Assembly: GCA_949290385.1 (NCBI GenBank)
Contig: CASERY010000039.1
Location: 1 to 64,000, forward strand
Length of the DNA stretch: 64,000 nt
DNA from: an uncultured bacterium
GTDB lineage: Bacteria > Verrucomicrobiota > Lentisphaeria > Victivallales > UBA1829
Reading direction: 5' to 3'
Below, in pieces: positions 207-43,782 of the stretch. Position 1 is the first letter of the stretch. The number at the start of each line of letters is the position of its first letter. The translations under genes and the position numbers were made by a program. A model generated the notes under the pieces. The model searched no databases, was not told where the DNA came from, and worked only from the letters and a program-made list of their open reading frames with translations.

Positions 207-1652
207 ATGAATTCCAGCGATCCTGTCTTTGAAAAAGAGTCTGTGCTTTCAGATTTCGGAACGGAAAAAAACGGCAAGCTTCAAATGCTCGCAGATCCTG
301 CCTGGATTCCTGAAAAACCGGGAGTGCGGATCCTGGTTGTCGATGATGATTCTGCTGTCCGGCAGATGCTTTGTCAAATGTGCACTGCAGCCGGATATAC
401 TGCCCATGGAGCTTCCGGCAGCGGAGAAGCTCAGGAGAAACTTATTGCATCGGATTATGAACTGATGCTTCTGGATGCAAAGCTGCCCGGCGTTTCCGGA
501 TTGGAATTACTGCGTTTTTGCAAACATCACCATCCTCTGATGGAAATTATTATGATTACCGGCAATCCAGAACTGTCTGACGCAGTTTCAACTGTAAAGA
601 ACGGGGCATTTGATTATCTGGCCAAACCCTTTTCCATGAAGCTGCTGCTTTCAAGAATCAGGGAGGCTTTGATTCACCGAAGCGGTCTTTTGAAGGAACA
701 GGAAACGAAAGAGGCTTCTACGGAAGAAAAAGAGCCGTTATCCAAAACTCAGCCTGTTCATCCGGATCGGATCAGGATGGTTTTCCCCCTGCCGGGATAC
801 CGGGCTGTTCGTTGTCTGGGATGCGGAGAGAATGGTGTCGTTGTCCTGGTGGAAAAAGACGGCCAAAAATATGCTCTGAAGCTTATCCGGCGAGGCAGAA
901 ATTCTCAGGCATGGGAGCAGCAGATCGGCAGATTCCTGAGAGAAGCGGAAATCCTGCAAAAAATGAATCATCCCAATATTGTGAAAATTGTCCATGCAGG
1001 TTTTGCAAAAGAAACAGAGATGCCTTATCTGCTGATGGAACATTTGGAAGGAGTTCCTTTATCAAGACTGATTTCAGCAGACAGTTTGACTGTTATGGAA
1101 CGGATTCATATTATCCGGCAGATCGCACAGTCTGTAAAGGCGATTCATGCTGTAGGCGTGCTGCATCGGGACATCAAGCCCGAAAATATTATAATTACCT
1201 CTTCCGGAAGAGCTGTCCTGACAGATTTCGGTATCGCCAGGGTGGAGGATTCAGCCTTGACTATGACCCATGAAACCCTGGGATCTCCTGCCTATATGCC
1301 TCCGGAGGCTTTCGATATTCATAGACCTTATACGGAAGAGTCGGATTTGTTTTCTTTGGGAGTCCTTTCCTATGAATTGCTTACGGGGAAGAGACCTTTT
1401 ACAGGAGAAAATATCCCTGCTGTGATGGATTAGATTCGTTATGGCAAAGTAAAGGATCCCTGTAAAGTCAACCGGGCAGTTCCGGCTGCTATCGGAAGAA
1501 GCGTACAGAAACTGCTTAGAAAGCGGCCGGAAAATCGCTACCGGTCTGCAGAATCATTTATCCAGCACCTGGACCAGTGGGAATCAGCTCCGGATGGCTT
1601 TGTTCAGAAAATGTACTTGGTTTTTGCCCAGATGCTGGAGATAAAACGTTGA
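207..1652 (+). CDS. Receiver domain fused to a Ser/Thr protein kinase
   Basis: A 481-residue protein. The first ~165 residues are a CheY-like receiver with the acidic VVDDD pocket, phospho-acceptor Asp in LLDAKLPG and conserved Lys in LAKPF. A complete eukaryotic-type kinase follows: glycine-rich GCGENGVV, YALKLI lysine, HRDIKPEN, DFG (LTDFGIAR) and PPEAF. TAG at 1431 comes just before the last subdomain. The frame continues through KRPENRYRS, the conserved end of such kinases, to TGA at 1650, which shows the TAG is read through. ATG 207 is preferred over TTG 195 because AAGGGAG (187-193) would abut the TTG. No transmembrane segment, so it is probably a cytosolic phosphorylation switch; its targets are unknown. 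Confidence 0.88.
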
Positions 1653-1903
1653 TGGATTTCAGAATATTTTTTTGAAGAAAACCCTACTTTTTCCGATGGT
1701 TTCGTGTATATTGTATGAGGACTGGGGCCGAAGGAGTTTTTTCGGCTGAAACAGGTCCGGTGAACATGATTGTACAGCAGAAAACCTGCATGCCGGAGAA
1801 TGGGATTTGCAGAATCGTTTTTGTTTTTTTCTCCGAAGACGCATTCAGAGTGCTGTATTTCATGACGGCTGAAGCTGACTGATGATTGCGGAGAAGAATA
1901 GGA

Positions 1904-3040
1904 ATGAAATCTGAGGACCGGAATGCAGATATGCATGTTAAACAGGAGAAATCCAGAAACCGCTCGCTGCTTATACTGATTGCAGGAATTCTCCTGGTTC
2001 ATTTTATTGTACTGTTTCTCTTTATTCAGAGCGGAAGCTCAGATTCATCGGTTTTTGACAGGGACGGCAGCAGCAATCTTTTTCCACGTTCTGCTTCCGG
2101 CAGCGGAGATCCCTATTCTTCGGATCCCGGTGAATTCTTTGGAGATCCTTCTCTGGCTATGTACGGACGGGATGGCAGAGGTGCTACCAAAAGAATTGAA
2201 TATTTGACTCTGGATTATTCCGGAGCACTGAAAGACGCCCTCCGCAACATGCCTGGCAGCAAGATCGCTTCCGTTTCCGGAATCCTGATTGACATGAATA
2301 CCGGCAAGGTTATTTGGCATAAAAATGCAAAGAAAAAAAGATCGATTGCCTCTTTGTCCAAGATTATGACCTTGCTGTTGGCATATCAGACTGCATCGGA
2401 TCCAAGATCTGGAATTACCTTGAAGTCTCCGGTTACATGTGACCGGATGGTGCTTCAGATTCCTCCCAGTAAAGTCGATCTGCAGCCCGGAGAAATTTTC
2501 CCGCTGGAAGATTTGATGCGTGCAGCAGCAATTCGCAGTGCGAATGATGCGGCTTACCAGATTGGTGCTTTTATTGGAGGCGGAGATGTAGATCAGTTCG
2601 TTGAACGGATGAATACTTATGCGGCTTCCATCGGCATGGACAGTACCACTTATTTCAATCCACACGGCCTTCCCGGAAAAACCGCAGCGCTGGACAATTC
2701 AAGCACTGTGGAGGATATTGCAAAGCTGTGCTATATCTATGCACAGTATCCGTACCTAATGGAACTTGCAGGAACTCGCCGCGGAGATTTCCGTATTCCG
2801 GGTCATCCGGATTATGTGCCGCTGGTCAATCATAATAATCTTCTTCCCGGAGCCAAGTACGGAACAGAAGGTGTGAATGGCATTAAAACAGGATTTACAA
2901 ATCGTGCAGGATCCTGTCTGGCGGTTACCTGTATCCGGGGAGACAAACATCTTCTGGCTGTCCTGGCAGGATATCCTTCGGCCTAGGACCGGGATCGTTT
3001 TGCCAAACAGCTTCTGGAATGGGGTTTTACCAGGATTTAA
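1904..3040 (+). CDS. D-alanyl-D-alanine carboxypeptidase (low-molecular-weight penicillin-binding protein)
   Basis: Peptidase S11 family; trims the terminal D-Ala from peptidoglycan stem peptides outside the membrane. One N-terminal membrane anchor (about residues 17-40) precedes a linker of about 45 residues. The three active-site motifs are present: SLSK (catalytic Ser), SAN (in IRSANDAAY) and KTG (in GIKTGFT). TAG at 2984 comes right after GYPSA. The frame then gives DRDRFAKQLLEWGF, the usual last helix of the family, and stops at TAA 3038. Start chosen at ATG 1904 with GGAG ten bases upstream. A 38-codon ORF at 1765-1881 in the gap before it is not convincing. Confidence 0.87.
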
Positions 3041-3632
3041 TTCACCAGACCTTCCATATTTTCATTCAGAAAAGATCCACAGAAAATGTGGCGGCAAAGG
3101 GGTGCATCTGAAAAGCAGAGAAAAAGAAGAGAATGGGAGATGAAGGGAGGACAGAAAGGCTTTCATATCCTTTCTTTAGAAAGAAGTCATACCTTATTTT
3201 AGAACAGTATCTGCTTGATTGATTGAAGGTTCTTTTTTTATCGACGGGACAAAATTGGAAACGGTATTTTTTTCAAGACGGAAGATTCCGTGCAGCATCT
3301 CTTCCTGATATGCTTATGTCTGCTCTATTAATATACAACATAACCAAGCCGATACACAGGCGCATTTCTTTCCAACACACTCATGACGGTTTGTTCTGCC
3401 GTTGAACTTGCCCTGCAGAAGACAGCTCTTCACTAGACCAGAGTCTGTTGAAACAGCATTTATTGTTTCCGGCCCCCTGATCGACAAGATCAGAGATTCC
3501 GCAGACACGGATCCTGTAAGATACAGCGTGTGGGAAAACAACACATGAGGAAGAAGAATCTGTTTCTCGGACAGTGCAACTCATTCTCTTCCTCCTGTCA
3601 GACCTTTTTCCGGTTTCCTCCGGCTGCTGCTG
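3041..3632. other. Intergenic, about 590 bases, no gene recognised
   Basis: This lies between two convergent genes. Short ORFs occur on both strands (including one of about 45 codons from 3085 if TAG is sense), but none has a ribosome-binding site or a family resemblance I can name. A weak stem (AGAAAGG...CCTTTCT, about 3156-3178) followed by a few T residues could terminate the carboxypeptidase mRNA. Confidence 0.4.
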
Positions 3633-4865: not shown

Positions 4866-5410
4866 ATACTTTTTACTCCAGCTTGATAAAATCAAAAACA
4901 ATGTGAGGGGAAAACAGTCAACTGTCTTTCTTTAAAAGAAAAACAGGTTTCCTGCTCCAGAAAATCCTTTATGTGAAGGAATCTTTTTTCATGGAGCTTT
5001 CCTGAAAGATTTTTTCAGCTGAAACAGGGGAGATCTTTTTTCCCGGGTTCATCTACCAGAAGGTCTGCCGATGAAGAAATGGAACGGGAGATTATGATTA
5101 TTCCGCTGCTGAAACTGAAAAAAGAACTCTTTTCCTTCAGAATTCCGTCTTCCACTCAATCCAGCATAATAAATACCCGGGAAAGAAAAAAATCAACCGG
5201 TCTGCTGGAGTCCCGTACTCAAAAATAGAGGAAAAATGGCGTACAATTCAAAACCGCTGAACCCGGAAGCATCATTTATTTGAATTCATTTTAAAATTAT
5301 GGAAACCATACTTGTTTCATTGAAAAAACTATGCTATAATAAACTGTTAGGTAAAATAAGATTAAAAACGTGAATGAGATTTTCCGGATGATCCTGAGGA
5401 GACCCTTAAA
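4866..5410. other. Divergent intergenic region with promoter for the zinc-ribbon gene
   Basis: The right half carries a strong + strand promoter: TTGTTT at 5312-5317, a 17-base spacer, TATAAT at 5335-5340, about 70 bases before the ATG at 5411. The left half must hold the promoter of the PfkB gene (a TTGACT lies near 4915-4920 on the minus strand, but its -10 is poor). Small A+T-rich stem-loops occur around 4960-5030. No coding frame recognised. Confidence 0.5.
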
Positions 5411-6130
5411 ATGATGATCAAATGTATAAAATGCGGGCATGAAAATCAGCTCGGTTCCATTTTCTGTCATGAGTGTGGCGAAAGAATTGACATGGATTAG
5501 CTCAGTCCTGAATATATGAAAGATGTCAATTAGGCAAAAAAGGCGAAAAAAGCACGAAGAGATTTGATTAAGAACGTGGTAGCCTTGGTTATTTTTATGA
5601 TTTTATGCGCAATTGTTCTCGGTGTCCTTCTTCCTCAGGGACAGTAGAAATTCAAGCGCGTGGATGATGCCGCAATTCAGGAGGCAAAAATCAAGCTCGC
5701 CGCAGTCAAAGTTGGATAGCCTGGAATGGAAGTGCCTTTTACTGCAGATGAATTGTCAGGCTTGTGGCTTGGAGGGCTCAGCACACCTTACGGCATGAAT
5801 GCGGAAGATGTATTCTTTTCTCCGAATAATGTTTCTTTTGAGATACCAAAGGATAAAAATGTGATCCGGGTTTACTATTATTCCACAGTACTGACTCAAT
5901 TTGATGTGACCATCATTGTGGAATGTGTTCCTGTTAAGACTGAAGATCCGGAATATCCAGTAACATTTGATTGTTCTTATGCTAAACTTGGACATATTCC
6001 ATTTTACTTTTTGCAGGGAAAGGTTGCAAACTTGATCAAGTGCATGGTCAGTTCTCCGGATATCAATAATGCTTTTAAAGCTGCAAAAGAAGTGACCGTG
6101 CAGGATCAGCAGCTGATTTTCAAATTCTGA
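5411..6130 (+). CDS. Zinc-ribbon, single-pass membrane protein with four internal TAG codons
   Basis: A 239-residue protein. A CxxC...CxxC zinc ribbon (Cys5, 8, 19, 22) opens it, followed by a lysine/arginine-rich stretch, one transmembrane helix (about residues 54-73) and a ~160-residue extracytoplasmic domain I do not recognise. TAG occurs at 5498, 5531, 5645 and 5717, i.e. codons 30, 41, 79 and 103. With the standard code only a 134-codon fragment from 5726 would be called, and the zinc ribbon and membrane helix would be missed. All four contexts are hydrophilic and suit Gln. Promoter at 5312-5340; stop TGA at 6128. Function unknown. Confidence 0.8.
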
Positions 6131-6261
6131 TGGGTGATTACGGCAAATTTTGTCTCCGGACGAATTTTGCCGCATTCATTTCCGTCGCTGCCGCTGAACA
6201 GATTTGCATGAAAAGTCTTTGAACGGAGAGATCGGCAGGAAGAAATCAGGGAACGGCAACA

Positions 6262-7209
6262 ATGAGGGAAGCAGAAAACATCCCGGGAAAAGAGGCGGTA
6301 GAGCCTTTCCGTAAACTTTTTCCTTTCAAATCCAGATATTTGGATGTAGGAAAAGGGCGTCTGCATTATGTTGATGAAGGCAAGGGCCCTGTGCTGTTGC
6401 TGATGCATGCATGTCCTATGTGGTCCTTTTCCTTCCGGAGAATCATTGCAGAATTTTCCAGACGTTACCGTGTGATTGCCGTCGATCAGATGGGGTTCGG
6501 CCTTTCTGATAAACCGGAAAACTGCGATTACCGTCTGGAAGCTCACATCGATAATTTGGAAAAGCTGGTGGAGGAGCTGGACTTGAAAAATCTGGTTCTG
6601 ATCATGCAGGGAAGAGGCGCAACAATTGGCATTGCATTTGCGATTCATCATCCGAACCTGATTCGAGGGTTTGTGGTTTTTAATTCCATGGCGTTTTCCG
6701 ATTATTCACTTCCGCTCCGTCTTCAGCTGTGCCGGGTGTGGTGGCTGGGGGCCAAGCTGGTGCTTGGGTTGAATTTCTTTTCGAGAGATTTAAAAAAACT
6801 CGGCCCTGAAATAGCATAGGCCTATGAATATCCGCTGAAACAGAAGAATGCGTACTACTCTCTGCTGCATTTTATTGAGGATATTCCTTGTGCTCCTGAA
6901 GATGATTCCGCTCAAACCGTCTATGAAATTGAATCCAGCATGTGGCTTCTGCGGGAGAAGCCTGCCTGCATTATCTGGGCATAGAAGGACTGGCTTTACA
7001 GGAATAAGTATCTGGCTAAATGGAAACAGTATTTCCCGTCTGCGGAGGTGCATATTCTGCGCAATGCCGGGCGGACTGTACTGGAAGATTCTCCTTATGA
7101 GATTTCCTTTTTCCTGGAGAAATTCCTGGATCGTCTGGACCGGCAGGATGCAAAATCCAGAGAGAATGCTGATGGCGATGATGTGTTCGGGGAGCAGGAA
7201 GAACCATGA
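6262..7209 (+). CDS. Alpha/beta-hydrolase-fold protein without the catalytic residues (pseudoenzyme), coupled to metF
   Basis: A 315-residue relative of haloalkane dehalogenases and epoxide hydrolases. It keeps the fold markers LHYVDEG, CPMWSFSFR (usual HGxPxWSF), VIAVDQMGFGLSDKPE and the acid-loop IIWAxKDW, where x is a TAG (6982). The nucleophile elbow reads MQGRGATIG where active members have QDWGGxIG, so the nucleophile Asp is Gly. The catalytic His position reads NAGRTVLEDSP instead of AGHxxxED, so His is Arg. A second TAG is at 6817. Its TGA overlaps the ATG of the next gene (ATGA), so the two are translationally coupled. It is probably a binding or regulatory partner rather than a hydrolase. 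Confidence 0.75.
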
Positions 7210-8660
7210 ATAAGAGAAACTGTATTCAGCTGGAAATGAATTTTGACGGATCTTTTGGAAACCGCTTGAAAGACCGTCTGGACAATGGAGAATTTCAGAT
7301 ATTTGCTGAGATCTCAGCTCCTTCTGCGGAGACGAGGGTGGAAGATGCGGTATAGCGTTATGGAGATTTTGAATATGTAACGCTTTCCCGGACGTCTCAT
7401 CCTACAGCGTTGGCTTTTCTGGACATGGATGAAGGCGGTGGCAGTCTCATGGATCCTGTGACATTCGCAGATTGTATTTGCCGGAGTTCCAGAGATTCCC
7501 ATTTGCTGTATGCCAGCGGCAGAAACAGGAATAAAGCACAGCTTTTTGGAATGGTGAAACATGCTATCGCGGAAGGTTTTAAGAACTTTTGTCTGGTGTC
7601 CGGACACACAAGGATGGATGAGGATATTCAAAGTGTTTCAAGGACTCTTTTTACAGAAAGTTCTGACAGCATTAGAACTCTGCGGGAAGCCTGTGACGGC
7701 AGTATTCTTACAGGAGGAGCGGTTAATCCGTTTCAGTATACACCGCAATGTGTGTATACGCAGTATTTCAGTCTGGTAAAAAAAATTGCAAGCGGAGCAT
7801 CGTTTATTGTAGCCCAGTTCGGCTGGGATATGAAGAAACTGCAGGAGATGCGTTGGAATCTTTTTCGTCGTTTTCTGGAGATTCCGTCTTTTGCAAGGAT
7901 TCTTTTTATGACTCCGGAGCTGGCGGAGAAAGTTTGTAGCGGAAAAATTCCGGGAATTCGGATTTCTCCGGATCTGGAAAATGTCCTGACAGAAGAAATG
8001 CGCCAGGGGGCATCGTAGTTTCAGGCCGCCCAGCAGAGGAGAATTCAGCTTCATGCTGCAGGGGCAAAACTTTTAGGCTTCAGCGGTATTCAGCTGGGTG
8101 GAATAGAGAATCCTGAACTTCTGGACAGAATTCTTTCTAAAATAGATGAGGCATTTGAAGAATTCCAGTCTTTTGAAGACTGGTTGAATGCTTACAAGGA
8201 ATATTTCGGACGACTGGAAATGGCTCCGTATCCTTATCGGTTTTATATGTTTGAGGGTCTGCTGAATTCCTGTTATCCCGAAGAGACTCTGCGCATGCGT
8301 GAGGCTCCTTTGGAAATGTGTAGCCGAAGTGAGCGTTTTCGTTATCGCTTAAGCCGTTGTCTTTTCCGCCATGCCGATGAGCTGCCCCCTTCGGAAAAGC
8401 TTTTGACAAAAAAAATGTTGGCTTCCTGCAAGTCCTGTGAAAGATGCCGTTTACCACAAACTATGTTTGTGTGTCCGGAAGAGTGCCCAAAGGGGCTTGC
8501 GAATGGTCCGTGCGGAGAACCCCTTCCATCCGGGAAATGTCCGTTTATGCCTGAGAAGGACTGTATTTATGCTCTGCGCATGCGGCTGGCACAGACCTAT
8601 AATAACTATTCCTCGCTGGAGGAAACGATTATTCCATCTCTGGACGAACGTAAGAGATGA
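7206..8660 (+). CDS. metF: Methylenetetrahydrofolate reductase with cysteine-rich MetV-like C-terminal domain
   Basis: 484 residues. The N-terminal ~290 residues form the MetF TIM barrel (EISAP start, FLVSGH-type strand read as FCLVSGHTR, QFGWD, GFSGIQLGGI). The C-terminal ~190 residues hold a cysteine cluster (CKSCERC, CPEECPKGLANGPCGE, KCPF, DC), the hallmark of the MTHFR_C/MetV domain associated with iron-sulfur binding in the Wood-Ljungdahl methyl branch. TAG at 7353 (after VEDAV) and at 8016 (after RQGAS, before FQAAQQRR) lie inside conserved barrel sequence. It reduces 5,10-methylene-THF to 5-methyl-THF, probably with a MetV-type electron-input domain in the same chain. TGA stop at 8658. 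Confidence 0.85.
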
Positions 8661-13717: not shown

Positions 13718-15754
13718 TCAGGACTCCTTTCCGGATTTTTCGGAAGAAGGGGAATTTGGTATGTGGTTGTGGTGAAGTTCGGCGGCAGCTACGGTAACGC
13801 TGTCCGTTTTCTGCTTGAAAAGAATCAGTTTTTCCGTATGGGCTCCAGCCATGGCGGCAGCTTCACAGACAGAGTGAATCCCGAAATGTTCCCAGGCCTT
13901 TGGAGAAGGATGAGGAACGTCTTTGAGATTCAGTTCATCTGCGGAGAATCCGCAGAGTTCAATGTTGTGTCTGGAGCAGAATGCTTTTAAAGCCACTTCC
14001 GAGCATTTGAAATCGGCCGTGGCGATCCGTGCAATATTTTTGATTTCAAAGGATCCAGGAAGTTTCTGCAGAGCAGTTTTTAGTGCGGTTTCAATCTGCT
14101 GCTCGGAAACACCCTTGCGGCAGCCGATTCCAAGAACGATGTCAGGAGGTGCCGCAAAAAGAATTTTTTCTGAAAAAGGCTTTCCCTTGAAATTCTGAAA
14201 ATCTTTCTGCGTTTTCAGAAGAGCAAATCCCGTTTCGGAACGGATATCCTGAACAGAATCAACTCGCCGGAACTGTTTGGAGAAAGATGCAAAGACACGG
14301 GAGAAAATCCTTTCCGGCACGGCAAGATCAAGTTTTTGACCGCTGAGAATACTTTGCGCAGTTTTCCCGATGACTTCCGGATTGAGTATCCTCCAGAGAT
14401 TTCTTGCTGCAATATCATCCAGTGCCGGCAGGTTCCGGCAGTCGCTGGCCGTGGAAAGGACGGCTTGTCCGCCGGTGAGCTCAGCCGTCTGACGAGCCAG
14501 AAGATTTGCGCCTCCAATGTGTCCGCTGAGAAGGCTGACCACATACTTGCCTTCTTCATCACAGACAATCACAGCAGGATCCTGAGTTTTGCTTCCGCAC
14601 AGAGGCGCTATCGCACGAACTGCAATGCCGGATGCACAGATAAAAACAAGCCCGTCATAACGGTTCCAGATGTTCTTCACCGTTTCTGCAAGGGATCCTC
14701 TGCGGATTCTGAAAACTGTATGACTGAAATTTGCACAGACCTGGAGACTTTCAGGAACATAGATTTCTGCACATTCAAATTTTTCTGCGATGCTGGAAGC
14801 CGTGCGGAATCCCTGGTCTGTAACAGGGAGAAGCGCAATGCGTCCACGGAAGGAGTATTTCTCATGGCTCGAAGGCGCAGACAGCGTATTTTTTCCTGCG
14901 ATGCCGTCGGTTCCGCAAGAGGCCGGAATACTGGACTGGGCATTGGCTTTGAGCTGATGTCTTGAATCCGGCGAAGAAATACCTGCACGATAGGAATGGG
15001 AGAAACTGGGACTGTAGAGACAGGAATTGCCGCCTTCTTTTCTGAGGACCTCTCCAATAATAATCATCGCCTGGCGTGTGATATGCTGTTCCGAGGCTTT
15101 TTGAGCAATATTCTAAAGCGTTCCGCGCACAATTTTCTGATCCGGCCAGGATGCTTTCCAGACTACAGCGGCAGGGGTTTCCGGCGATTTCCCAGATTGA
15201 AGGAGCTCTCTGCATAGACTGTCCAAGGAGCCGGCACTGAGGAAAAAGCAGAGTGTAGCGTTTCCGAGGGATGCAAGAGCAGGGACATTTTCCGCTTCCG
15301 GAACAGGAGTCCTTCCTGCGAATCTTGTAAGAATGGCCGTCTGGGTGACATCATTCATGGTAAATTCTGTTTTCAGCGCAGCAGCTGCGGCAAAAACACT
15401 GGAAACACCCGGAATGACTTCATAGGGAATCTGAAGACGGTCAAGTTCCCGGAACTGTTCCGCCACAGTCCCGTAGATGGCCGGATCTCCTGTATGAAGG
15501 CGTACTGCACGGCGTCCCTTGTAATAAGCTTCAGCAAGAGACTGTATCACTTCCTGGAGTGTCATGTGTGCGCTGTTCCGCAGTTCGGCATGCGGCGCTT
15601 CCTGAAGAAGTTCCTCATTGACAAGAGAGCCCGCATAAATAATGAGATCCGCCTGACGCAGAGCATTCTGTGCACGGATTGTAATCAGGTCCCGGGCTCC
15701 GGGGCCTGCACCTGCAAAAAGAATGGGGTAGTGTCGGCATTCAGAATCAGACAT
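13718..15754 (-). CDS. cobM-cbiG: Fusion: cobalt-precorrin-4 C11-methyltransferase (CobM/CbiF) + cobalt-precorrin-5A hydrolase (CbiG)
   Basis: 678 residues. Residues ~1-240 are CobM/CbiF: FAGAGPGARDLITIRA, HTGDPAIYG, VIPGVSSVFAAAA, and the end ITRQAMIIIGEVL...YSPSFSHSYR. A Ser/Ala-rich linker leads to CbiG (from about residue 280): ALLPVTDQGFRTA, FICASGIAVRAIAPL, VVSLLSGHIGGAN, VLGIGCRKGVS and GFSADELN. TAG at 15113 lies in the last CobM helix (RGTL-x-NIAQKASEQ), so a standard reading would split CobM and start a false CbiG at 15067. The two activities act consecutively in the anaerobic route around CbiD. Start 15754 has GGAG about 9 bases upstream. TGA stop. Confidence 0.88.
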
Positions 15755-17051
15755 GCTGTTTTTCTCCATTTCCGGGAAACATTTTTTTATGAAATACGGC
15801 CAGAAAAACAGGATTTTCGGCTTTGCGCATGTGTCCGGAAGAACCAAGTTTTTCTGTTCTGGCAATATTGACTGTAAGAAATTCTGCCCGTTCAAGATCC
15901 TGCAGACGGTTTGGCATGGCGTTTAGGCACTGTTCCGTTTCCATCAGGATGGCTGTGGCTGCAAGAACTCCGCCTGGGTTCAGGCGACGGAACGTCTGAG
16001 GAAGAAGGTCCGAAAGAGCCTCCGGTCCACCACCGCCAAAAAAGACTGAATCGGGAGCTGGAAGGGTTTCCCAGAGATCTTCCATGCGCCCGGAATGAAG
16101 ATGAATATTGGAAAGTCCCGCCTCACGAATATTTTGCAGAATATCTTTACAGCGTTCGGGATTTTTTTCGACGGAATGAACTTCCAGTGCTTCACAAAGG
16201 GAGGCCGCTTCCAGTCCGACAGATCCGCTGCCTGCTCCGAGATCCCAGAGAACACCCCGGCGCAGACGAAGTTTGGATAATACAAGAACCCGGGTTTCAG
16301 GATGTGTAATCATATGATTCTGATGATGGTAGGTTTCATCAGGCAGCCCCAGGGCAAGAGCAGGAGAAAAGCCTGTTCCCTGTTCCGGGAGAATCAGCAT
16401 GGAAAGTCCGGAACAGGCGGGAAGTTCAGACAAATTTTTTAAAGTATCCGCCTGCAGATTTTCGGAAGGAAGTCCCAGATCTTCCGCAAGAAATGCTTCC
16501 CTTTGGCCGGCATCCGGAAATGCGTCAACGAGTTCTTTTGCCAGGACGGATGCACTGCGATGCGGGTCGCCGTAGACCACCGCACCGGGCGCCGTGAGTA
16601 CAGCACGGGCGTTCAGGATTTTGTCTGTACCGTGAACGCTGAAGAACCTGGTTGCAGACCAGGGGAGTTTCAAGCGTGCAAATGCCGTTTGAAAAGCGGT
16701 GGGAGCGGGATCTATGCGTACATGTTCGGGATTTGCCATAGCCAGTACCGTGGAGGCTATGCCATGGAAAAGCGGATCGCCGGAGGCAAGAATCAGCAGA
16801 TGCCGGCCCGGAGACAAATGCCGGAGAAGGTTTTTCAGCGTATCTTTCAGATTTGCTTCCAGCGGAATCAGCTGCGCATGCAGATCCTGTGGAAGCAATG
16901 CAAGCAGACGTTTTCCTCCGGCAATGATCTGTGCATGGCGGATCTCCGGGAAATCCAGTGGACCGCTGTCCGGAGGGATTCCTTTCAGAAGAATGGGCGC
17001 CTCTGAGAAATCTATAGAGGAAGAAGAGGATGTTTCTGTAAGAGGATTCAT
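15747..17051 (-). CDS. cobL: Precorrin-6Y C5,15-methyltransferase (decarboxylating), CbiE-CbiT fusion
   Basis: 434 residues. The N-terminal half is the CbiE-type methylase (LLILASGDPLFHGIAS, ILPEQGTGFSPALALGLPD). The C-terminal half is CbiT, with the SAM-binding motif LWDLGAGSGSVGLEAA and VFFGGGGPEALSDLL; CbiT methylates C15 and decarboxylates the acetate side chain. No TAG; TGA stop. Overlaps the next gene by eight bases, and the start lies two bases after the cbiD stop. Confidence 0.92.
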   Translation of the reverse strand: MNPLTETSSSSSIDFSEAPILLKGIPPDSGPLDFPEIRHAQIIAGGKRLLALLPQDLHAQLIPLEANLKDTLKNLLRHLSPGRHLLILASGDPLFHGIASTVLAMANPEHVRIDPAPTAFQTAFARLKLPWSATRFFSVHGTDKILNARAVLTAPGAVVYGDPHRSASVLAKELVDAFPDAGQREAFLAEDLGLPSENLQADTLKNLSELPACSGLSMLILPEQGTGFSPALALGLPDETYHHQNHMITHPETRVLVLSKLRLRRGVLWDLGAGSGSVGLEAASLCEALEVHSVEKNPERCKDILQNIREAGLSNIHLHSGRMEDLWETLPAPDSVFFGGGGPEALSDLLPQTFRRLNPGGVLAATAILMETEQCLNAMPNRLQDLERAEFLTVNIARTEKLGSSGHMRKAENPVFLAVFHKKMFPGNGEKQHV

Positions 17052-35809: not shown

Positions 35810-36203
35810 GGCTCAGTTTGGCCTTTCCTTTTTTCATCGGGCTGTCATGGAAAATGAAATGTTTCGTGTGGAAAAAGAGAGAAGGTTTCTGCGTGTTCAC
35901 ACATGTCCTGGATGAATCATTTTCCGCTGATGAGATAATATGATGTTTTTCCTGGAATATCCAAATGGGTTTTGCAAAAAATTTGAAAGATCCAGCTTTA
36001 ATAAGATCCCTTTTATTTCTTGAAACAAATTTTTTGAAAGATCTTCTTTTCACAAGATATCAATCGTTTCCTGTACAGACAGGATTTTTCTGTGATTTCA
36101 TTCCACAAGGGATGTCATTGGCTGGTTTTCACAGAAATGCGTTTTATATTAACAGAAAAATTTTTGAAATAATTCTTCTGTTCAAAAGGGAAAGAGGTGT
36201 TTG
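35810..36203. other. A+T-rich divergent intergenic region with a direct repeat
   Basis: Two similar stretches, TTTGAAAGATC-N9-AAGAT at about 35982-36006 and TTTGAAAGATC-N9-AAGAT at about 36033-36057, are 51 bases apart. The second overlaps a candidate -35 TTGAAA (36034-36039) with TATCAA 18 bases on (36058-36063). They could be operator half-sites for the Sel1 gene. No coding frame recognised. Confidence 0.35.
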
Positions 36204-37607
36204 GTGAAGACGGCAGGATTCAGAAGACTTGAAAAATCTTTTATCCGAATTTTGGGAATGATTCTTCTCCTGCTGTTGATCGCACCGACGATATGCCATG
36301 CAGCAGCAGAAGAAGAGAGTGAATTCAATCTTCTGCGTGAAAAAGCCCATGCCGGGGATCCCGCAGCCCAGTTCAAACTGGGAAATTTATACTTTTATGG
36401 AAGTGATTCTGTAAAATCGAGTCCGGAACTTGCTGTTTACTGGTATAAGAAAGCTGCAGCACAGGGAATCCCGGAAGCTCAGTTCAATTACGGCCTTTGT
36501 TTGGAAGAAGGATTCGGAACTGAAAAAAATATGATAGAGGCCATTCATTATTATGATCTTTCCGGAGAACGGGGTTTTGTTCCTGCTTTGTACCGGAAGG
36601 CCATGCTGCTGATCCATGGGAAACCCCGAACCCCGGAAATGCTTAAAGGCATGACTCCGGAAGAAATTCAAAGAGTCAACTCTTTTATGAATCCTTCTGA
36701 AGGAGCAGCTCTTTTGGAGAAGATTCTTGAGAAAACAGACCTTCCGGAAGGAAAAATAGAACTTTGTGACTATCTTTTGAAAACGCTTCCGGAAGACATT
36801 TCAGAGCGGGAAAAACTTTGTACCAGAATTTATACGCTCCTCCGGGAGGCGGAAGCTGCCGGTTCCGGATAGGAAAATCCCAAGCTCTACCGTTTGCTGG
36901 CAGACTGCTTTTTCGGAGGATTTGGATGCAAAACGGATGAGAAAAAGGCGGTTGAACTGCTGAAGAGAGCTTCTGAAGCTGGAGATACGGAAGCCATGGT
37001 GAAGCTGGCCTTCTGTTTGGAACATGGCGCAGACAGTCCTCCCGATCGGAAACAGGCCTTTCAATGGTATCGGAAAGCGGCTTTTGCCGGATTCCCATAT
37101 GCTCAATTCAAGTATGGAGAATATATCGCTGCCGGATATGAGGAAGGACAAGGTCTTTCCGAGGCTGTCCGCTGGTACCAGAGAGCTGCAAACTATCAGT
37201 GTCCTGAAGCCCTTTACAGAATGGGGGTCTTGACTGCTGAAGGAATTGGCATGGAAAAAAATCTTGCCTTGGCGTCTGAAAATTTTCTCCGGGCTGCCAA
37301 ACTGGATTATGCCCCGTAGCAAGTCGCTCTGGCTGTTTATTTTTTAAAAGGAAGCGAGGTGATTCAGAAGGATGAATCTGCCGCATATTACTGGTTCAAA
37401 CGGGCTGCCGATTCAGGAGGATCCCTGGAGGCTTAGAAATGGACATAGCTATGTCTGGCATATGGTGTTGGATGTCCTATGAATATGGAACAGGCACTTC
37501 ATTATATGGATTCTGCAGCGATAGCCGGAGATCTGCAGGCTGCGGAACTTTCCCGGAAAAATCCTTACGACTGGCCGTCTCCGGAAGTTTTCAAACCTGA
37601 GCCTTGA
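36204..37607 (+). CDS. Secreted Sel1-repeat protein with four internal TAG codons
   Basis: 467 residues. Hydrophobic signal peptide with likely cleavage after CHAAA, then Sel1/TPR-like repeats: GDPAAQFKLGNLYFYG, GIPEAQFNYGLCLEEG, GDTEAMVKLAFCLEHG, GFPYAQFKYGEYIAAG. TAG at 36870, 37317, 37434 and 37446. In the last full repeat the sequence is GSLEA-x-KWT-x-LCLAYG: the first TAG takes the place of the Gln of 'AQ' present in three sister repeats. That is direct internal evidence for Gln. GTG 36204 is six bases after GAGG. Such proteins act in protein-protein contacts; the partner is unknown. Confidence 0.85.
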
Positions 37608-41568: not shown

Positions 41569-43782
41569 TTAAAACCTTTGACGCTTTATCTATGGATCAC
41601 ATTGAAATTGAAAAAGTTTTATTTCATTCGATCTGCCCATGACAATGTAAATTCCCCAGGCAGCCAGAACACTGAAATAAGGAAGAACACAAAGATGAAA
41701 ACGGGGAAGCGGCAGGATCCCCGGTATGATTAAATAGTAGCCGGCAAAAAGCAGAAAAACAAGGAATGCCAGAAACTTTCTTTTCAGAAGCATCCATATT
41801 ACAGCCGAAACTGCAAGCAGATCACAGAAGACTGTAAGAATCAGCAACGGCAGGGTAACCAGGAAGGGCCCCCAGTTCCCACGGAAGTAATGCAAAGCTC
41901 CGGCAAGGATCCCTTCACGGTTGATAATATCCAGTGTGTTTCTGCCATGGACCGTAATGCCCAGATTTTCCAGGAACGCCGGAATATCCGGCAGTAGAAT
42001 CAGCGGCTGAAAATGCATGAAGAGAAAATGAAAAGGATATTGGAGAAGAATTTTTTTCATGGCATTTTCCTGCCAGGAGAAACGGCTGTCAGGTGACTGG
42101 TAGAGTTCCGGATGTTCTGCAAATTCCCTGTTCATATCTGCCATGTACTGATTGCGCAGTTCATCAAGGGACTGATTTTCCGCTCGTGCCTGAACCGCAG
42201 CTGCTTCATGTTTCAAACGGTCTGCAGAAATGCCGTCGATTCTCCACCCTGCACCTAGTGTGTGGTTTCTGAGGATCCAGGGCGCAAGCAACTATGCGGT
42301 TAGGACCAGTGCACAGACTCCAAAGCGGATTTTTTCCCGGAATGGCGGCTTCGGAAGAAAACACAGGACAAAAAGACAGGGAAGAATCCATGCAATATTG
42401 ATAGGCCGTATATAAGTTCCTGCGATGGAAGTCAGTACCGCTGCAAAGAAGAAGTATCCGAATCCGCTTTTCATAAACTTCAGGAAGAACAGCATCTGGA
42501 AGGCCACAATCCAGGCGAAAAGTGCATCTGAAAGAAACATGGGCGTATATGCAATTGCTGTGGGATTCAGCGCAAAGAGAAAAGCTGAAATCCAGGAAAC
42601 TTTCCAGTTTGCATAAAGTCTTGCCGCCCGATAAACAGGAAGAACAGCCAGTCCTCCCAGAATACAGGAAATGATGATACAGAACTGCAAACTTCCTCCA
42701 CTGAGCAGAAGAAGAACTGCCAGATAAAGCGGATAGCCCGGAGTTCGTATCAGAGCCGCTTGTCCGGATCCGGGACCTGTGCTGAATGTTCCGTCATGCG
42801 CCAGAGAAAAAGCCGGCCCGAGGTATGTGGCTGAATCGGGTCGACACAGAAGATCTGGATTCATAAGCCCGGGAATGCTGTAGAGCAGGCGGATTGCAAC
42901 TGCGGCAAAAACCAGTAGAAGGATAGCCCGTTCCGCTTTCAGCGCAGATTTTTGAACTTTGGCGAGATCTGGAATCTGCTCCAGACTAGCCCGGATGTCT
43001 TTTAAAGGATGCCATTTCCATTTCAGACAGGTCCATAGGCTTTGAATGCCATCCTTCCAGCGGATTTTTTTCCCTTCCTTCTTTTTCCGGGGATGATATG
43101 CAATGGGCACTTCATAAATTTCAAATCCCAGCCTCAGTATTTTGGCGGTGATTTCGCATTCCCAGTCAAACCTGTTTCCCTGAAATGGAAGATTTCGGAT
43201 CAGATCTCCTCGAAATGCCTTGTAACAGGTCGGTTCATCTGTGAGTTCCGCATGGAACAGAAGATCGATACAGAATGTCAGACTCAGGGCCCCCAGATAA
43301 AAAATGGGAGAGGAGTGAAGGCGGTTTTTCCCCGATTCCTGCCGGGATCCGTAAACGGCAGCATATTTTCCCTGCAGAATTGGTTCAATACATTGAAAAT
43401 AATCCTGAGGGTCATATTCCAGATCTGCATCCTGAATTATGACAACATCTCCATGAGAGTGCCGTATGCCCGTCCGGACCGCGCTGCCTTTGCCCTGATT
43501 GGACTGCGTGAAGACCTGCGGCCTGATTTTCAGCGTTTCACTGAATTCTTCCATCCATTTCTGAATGATTTCAGAAGTCCCGTCTGTGGATCCGTCATTT
43601 ACGACAATGATTTCTTTGCAGATATCGGGCAGGGAGGTCTGTCGAACCTGTTCCAGAAGTTTATAAAGTGTAGCTTCCTCATTGAAGACCGGAATAATGA
43701 TCGAGAGAACTTTTTCTTCAGCAAGAAGATCCTTTTTCTCCTATCCTTCCTGAGCAGACAACAATTCAGAGGTCGTCTGCAT
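41569..43782 (-). CDS. Fusion: family 2 glycosyltransferase + multi-pass (GT-C-like) membrane domain
   Basis: About 737 residues. The N-terminal GT2 domain, of the dolichol-phosphate-sugar/polyprenol-phosphate type, has LSIIIPVFNEEATLY, VNDGSTDGTSE, SNQGKGSAVRTGI, the metal site QDADLEYDP and YKAFRGDLI. From about residue 270 a membrane part of some eight or more helices has an N-terminal loop rich in acidic/aromatic residues, like ArnT/PMT enzymes that use lipid-linked sugars. TAGs at 43741 (codon 14), 42292 (inside a helix after ALVLTA) and 41590 (seven codons before TAA 41569). Start uncertain; ATG 43782 lacks a good ribosome site. Confidence 0.78.

Follow-up and report, generated by a model that had tools for sequence, protein, structure and literature searches.

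The gene at 5411-6130 of the window (the whole 64,000-nt stretch of DNA analysed here) probably encodes a conserved Lentisphaeria membrane protein with a putative TULIP-like domain outside the membrane. The bacterium that carries it probably uses an altered genetic code, with RF1 lost and UAG most likely standing for Gln. The features on which this reading is built are listed in Table 1.

A conserved gene with four inner TAG codons

The gene opens at ATG 5411 and closes at a TGA (6128-6130), and it is whole only if its four TAG codons are read through, as the preliminary description had proposed; none of the homologues in the 32 matching relatives contains an inner stop. The start codon lies nine bases downstream of AGGAG and has a good ribosome site. 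The strong promoter claimed upstream consists of a perfect extended -10 element (TGC-TATAAT, 5332-5340) and a -35 element matching at only 3/6 positions; a consensus scan lists no + strand promoter in 4900-6300. No Rfam family matches were found in the window.

Table 1. Features of the zinc-ribbon gene and of its conserved neighbours (window coordinates)
Feature	Position	Strand	Basis or detail
Zinc-ribbon/TULIP-like membrane protein gene, TAG = sense	5411..6130	+	239 codons
TAG codon 30 of zinc-ribbon gene	5498..5500	+	
TAG codon 41 of zinc-ribbon gene, within basic linker	5531..5533	+	
TAG codon 79 of zinc-ribbon gene	5645..5647	+	
TAG codon 103 of zinc-ribbon gene	5717..5719	+	
Promoter-like site TTGTTT, 17 nt, extended -10 TGC-TATAAT	5312..5340	+	Read directly
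Shine-Dalgarno-like GAGGAGA	5396..5402	+	Read directly
Zinc ribbon CxxC-x10-CxxC (aa 1-26)	5411..5488	+	Pfam E 1.9e-5
Transmembrane segment (aa 56-74, hydropathy 3.36), within helix aa 33-73	5576..5632	+	
Outer domain (aa 76-239), TULIP-like alpha/beta fold	5636..6127	+	Predicted structure
Alpha/beta hydrolase gene, 2 TAGs, conserved neighbour	6262..7209	+	Pfam E 9.8e-24; synteny
MTHFR-like gene (MTHFR + DUF5981), 2 TAGs, conserved neighbour	7206..8660	+	
TAG codon 271 of MTHFR	8016..8018	+	Relatives 29/29 Gln (CAG 23, CAA 6)

Frame length alone is poor evidence here; random sequence of the same composition yields, per 64 kb, 0.65 frames of at least 239 codons with TAG read through and 0.15 such frames that also hold at least four TAGs. 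Rather, 5411-6130 is regarded as a gene because of its homology, which is strong evidence. A search with the 239-residue product, proposed earlier as a check, returned matches in 33 of 61 genomes (its own and 60 relatives), and the protein can be aligned over its whole length with homologues from Lentisphaeria and Victivallales that have no inner stop. Loci were assigned to 30 of the matches, 29 of them in relatives, where 27 are full proteins and the other two run off their contigs. All 27 full homologues (233-390 residues) open with the same zinc ribbon; the start is at 5411 and not at 5726. A wider scan collected 64 loci. By record title most belong to Lentisphaeria and Victivallales, some to Kiritimatiellota and Verrucomicrobia, and two are of firmicute type. 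In 15 of the 64, the zinc-ribbon gene is followed, as here, by the alpha/beta hydrolase and then MTHFR.

TAG must also be read as sense in neighbouring genes, including those for the hydrolase and MTHFR (Table 1), a kinase (one TAG), an epimerase (one TAG) and cobalamin genes. The TAG at codon 288 of CobD aligns to an Ala column, which counts against Gln. No PDB relative of the MTHFR protein was found at an E value of 0.01. Three frames of the window were recorded in passing: a fusion of a receiver domain with a Ser/Thr kinase (195-1652, +), whose TAG aligns to Gln in both relatives; a Sel1-repeat protein (36201-37607, +) with four TAGs, as many as the zinc-ribbon gene; and a CbiF-type methylase and CbiG that share a single frame running through a TAG at codon 261 (13718-15895, -), which looks like a fusion rather than two genes, as a relative's protein aligns across that codon.

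TAG as a sense codon across the genome and loss of prfA

The assembly (2.7 Mb, 78.5% complete; GC of the window 47%) was sampled by comparing 808,340 of its own bases (30% of the assembly) with the genes of relatives. Alignments were retained only if mismatches were most frequent at the third codon position, a filter introduced after the first-pass result. The 72,625 aligned codons that remained hold 74 TAG, 3 TAA and 11 TGA, with aligned TAGs present on 20 of the 27 contigs examined. Genes with TAG include those for AlaRS, MreB and RF2. The inner TAA and TGA codons lie mostly in misframed alignments: four TGAs fall in a single alignment of 36% identity, three in one short alignment, and four TAA/TGAs at 7005-7181 of the window lie outside the hydrolase frame, leaving three without explanation (L276, L283 and L412). 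The TGA in L276 (~16197, -) comes early in a protein of 769 residues that shares 58% identity with a relative; the relative has Arg at that position.

Two earlier lines of evidence were put aside. The first-pass count, made against the longest ORFs of relatives, gave 36 TAG, 16 TAA and 42 TGA inside alignments; we ascribe its TAA and TGA codons to antisense shadow frames, because the aligned residues (Gln, Gly, Arg) fit. A comparison of ORF lengths with each stop codon in turn read as sense was also dropped as evidence; it does not single out TAG, as ORFs lengthen with TGA or TAA as sense too.

At conserved gene ends (n=184), TGA occurs 91 times, TAA 89 times and TAG four times. Three of the four TAG ends are followed by a further stop 2, 6 and 7 codons downstream, a pattern expected of former TAG stops that have come to be read through; the fourth belongs to an alignment with three inner TGAs. 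Probable ancestral TAG stops with a TAA or TGA within 2-7 codons were noted at L294 4208, at L295 16292 and at 41590-41592 of the window. Judged by these alignments, TAG has a sense meaning in genes throughout the genome, while TAA and TGA, both read by RF2, mark the gene ends. The recoding put forward in the preliminary description stands for the gene at 5411-6130; its genome-wide extent and the loss of RF1 had not been stated there.

RF1, encoded by prfA, is the release factor that reads UAG, while prfB encodes RF2. A class I release factor search of the whole assembly (78.5% complete) did not recover RF1; its only finds were RF2, which has the SPF motif, and a GGQ protein of 192 residues. 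The prfB gene is intact (L061 1408-2505, -) and itself carries a TAG at codon 42. The release-factor-like GGQ protein (L062 1177-1755, -) might rescue ribosomes at UAG, and the genome also has tmRNA.

Absence from the assembly is weak evidence by itself, since the assembly is incomplete and several of 40 relatives likewise show only one full-length release factor; the site that prfA would occupy is the stronger evidence. Among the prfA regions of ten relatives, rpmE adjoins prfA in nine and the same ABC transporter lies on its other side in three; in two relatives prfA has both of these neighbours. Contig C43 of the present genome carries rpmE (944-1135), then 414 nt, then that ABC transporter (1550-3352; 60% identity with its counterpart in relative G008). 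The intervening 414 nt show no similarity to RF1 above chance (best E value 0.07), and we conclude that prfA was deleted. On this synteny, RF1 has been lost from its usual place. In this reading, the gene at 5411-6130 is whole only because the bacterium appears to have lost the factor that terminates at UAG and to decode that codon as an amino acid.

The residue inserted at UAG

In plain codon-wise tests Gln scores best at 15, 43 and 74 columns, and at 74 columns it is ahead of Lys by 9.9 nats and of Ala by 16.1. Controls with known codons returned the right residue in nearly all subsamples; the exception was TGG in the 43-column test, where Trp cannot be modelled once its single codon is removed. 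Gln is thus the best-fitting residue and most likely the one for which UAG stands, yet the fit is unlike that of an ordinary Gln codon. The Gln score for TAG is -5.9, compared with a mean of 59 and a minimum of 32 for CAG samples of equal size, and TAG columns are far more variable than those of any sense codon tested. Where at least four relatives are aligned, conserved Gln is found in 1 of 11 TAG columns versus 53 of 228 CAG columns. Across the 808,340-base sample, TAG was much rarer than CAG at conserved positions.

The check proposed earlier, for CAG at the four TAG sites in relatives, fails for the zinc-ribbon gene, because these columns are variable and hold few Gln. The same check succeeds when applied to the neighbouring MTHFR TAG 271. 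A solved AlaRS chain, which we take to be that of E. coli, has Gln where the AlaRS of this genome has TAG, while the best-scoring AlaRS structure, 1riq, has Arg. We read the placement of TAG at variable positions as a sign that the change is young or the decoding poor, with TAG kept out of sensitive positions.

Decoding as Gln could rely on a tRNA that the assembly lacks or on near-cognate reading by tRNA-Gln(CUG). None of the 46 tRNA matches in the assembly (78.5% complete) has a CUA anticodon, and a class I pattern search likewise returned no CUA tRNA among its six matches, one of which is tRNA-Arg(UCU) and the rest not tRNA-like; the pattern excludes tRNAs with long variable arms, which the Rfam tRNA model finds. 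The missing CUA tRNA is not surprising, given that tRNA-Ile(GAU) and several tRNA-Ser species are also absent from the 46 matches. The anticodon arm of the genome's own tRNA-Gln(CUG) is as in relatives and its anticodon stem has five pairs, with no sign of the altered tRNA-Gln with a 4-bp stem described in PMC13092985, a mechanism we rejected.

The same observations bear on the alternative that UAG has no dedicated tRNA at all. A natural bacterium would then have deleted RF1, and UAG would be read ambiguously by near-cognate tRNAs, mainly tRNA-Gln(CUG), which insert mixed residues, with no suppressor tRNA and with TAG surviving only where the residue hardly matters. We hold this to be possible but somewhat unlikely. 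The unaltered tRNA-Gln(CUG), the failure to find a CUA tRNA and the avoidance of conserved Gln columns by TAG are all consistent with it, as is the behaviour of RF1-less E. coli, in which, according to PMC6207430, Gln and Tyr, as well as Asp and Val, are inserted at UAG, and frameshifting and rescue also occur. However, a CUA tRNA may be missing simply because the assembly is incomplete and lacks other tRNAs, and both MTHFR 271 and AlaRS have TAG at Gln sites.

Assignment of UAG to another amino acid (Ala, Lys or pyrrolysine) is improbable. Its best candidate is Ala, the commonest residue aligned to TAG (17.6%) and a rival to Gln in a variable-site mixture model (Gln 2.14, Ala 1.64; bootstrap wins Gln 68 and Ala 57 of 200), in which dropping MTHFR 271 puts Ala ahead; this model often mislabelled the controls and has little power. 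The codon-wise margins over Lys and Ala and the invariant Gln column at MTHFR 271 argue against such an assignment.

It is very doubtful that TAG is still a stop and that the affected genes are pseudogenes or cases of regulated readthrough. Most called ORFs are indeed free of TAG (182 of 310), but decay would yield TAA and TGA too, at odds with the counts above, and the rival must also accommodate TAG within AlaRS, MreB and RF2 and a syntenic site from which prfA has gone. Finally, a chimeric bin in which only some contigs belong to a TAG-recoding element, for example a phage, is scarcely credible: phages with TAG as Gln are known (PMC9523058), but here the TAG genes include housekeeping genes, are spread over most of the contigs examined and have their relatives in the same bacterial order.

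Predicted fold, role and significance

Returning to a protein translated with Gln at UAG, the layout first described for it (zinc ribbon, basic linker, one helix, outer domain) is seen in the predicted structure. The AlphaFold model (mean pLDDT 89) consists of a zinc ribbon, a long helix (33-73) that includes the membrane segment, and an outer domain of alpha/beta type, which has a pLDDT of 87 when modelled alone. The ribbon scores 24.7 bits against Zn_Ribbon_1 (PF13240), just below the curated cut-off of 25, and the cysteines of its two CxxC pairs (C5, C8, C19 and C22) are invariant across 45 sequences. By the positive-inside rule, the basic linker places the ribbon on the inner side of the membrane.

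Structure comparison of the outer domain gave Z scores of 6.9-4.3 in the top 24 rows, all below 8, and nearly all of these rows are what we take, partly from their names, to be TULIP-type proteins. The best were YceB (Z 6.9, rmsd 4.3 over 125 residues), SPLUNC1 (6.6), JHBP (6.5) and CETP (6.2), with LBP, BPI, P47, Takeout and an SMP domain among the others; Foldseek returned no match with an E value below 0.001. The DUF2140 profile matches four of 45 family members (best E value 6.7e-6), the window protein itself giving no match at 0.01; DUF2140 is described as a bacterial TULIP in PMC6791001. DUF2140 and YceB proteins are likewise membrane-anchored with a similar predicted outer fold, whereas the window protein adds a cytosolic zinc ribbon. 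TcaA (NF053815) shares the N-terminal ribbon and helix (residues 2-74), but the window protein reaches only 21.5 bits against a cut-off of 550 and its outer part has no match.

Less firmly than UAG is assigned to Gln, these models suggest that the zinc ribbon faces the cytosol and that the outer, TULIP-like domain may bind a lipid or other hydrophobic ligand. Such binding, on the outer side of the inner membrane, would be the likely role, and the ribbon would serve as a cytosolic partner site. A sensor, as the 'sensor-like' layout of the preliminary description hints, is unsupported; the outer domain resembles a TULIP lipid-binding domain. A literature search on zinc ribbon, transmembrane and Lentisphaera found no paper.

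The recoding can be set beside several known systems. Phages with TAG as Gln (genetic code 15) share both the codon change and the likely residue, but there a phage recodes inside a standard-code host, whereas here chromosomal housekeeping genes are involved and RF1 is gone. Mycoplasma, Absconditabacteria and Gracilibacteria likewise turned a stop into a sense codon in a bacterial genome; in these, however, UGA became Trp or Gly, while the present case concerns UAG and RF1. Recoded RF1-less E. coli similarly lacks RF1 and a stop meaning for UAG, but it is engineered and its UAG was left unassigned, in contrast to a natural genome with UAG inside genes. According to a 2021 screen of more than 250,000 genomes, every bacterial code change known earlier was a reassignment of UGA (PMC8629427). 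We found no report of a UAG-recoding bacterial chromosome in the literature in PubMed Central, to which our search was confined.

Should UAG prove to be read ambiguously, the bacterium would count as a living 'ambiguous intermediate' of code evolution, with TAG only at residue-tolerant positions. Annotation with code 11 would split its TAG-containing genes. A bacterial chromosome without RF1 and with UAG as sense would show natural capture of the amber codon, and such a bacterium would make codon-capture models directly testable.
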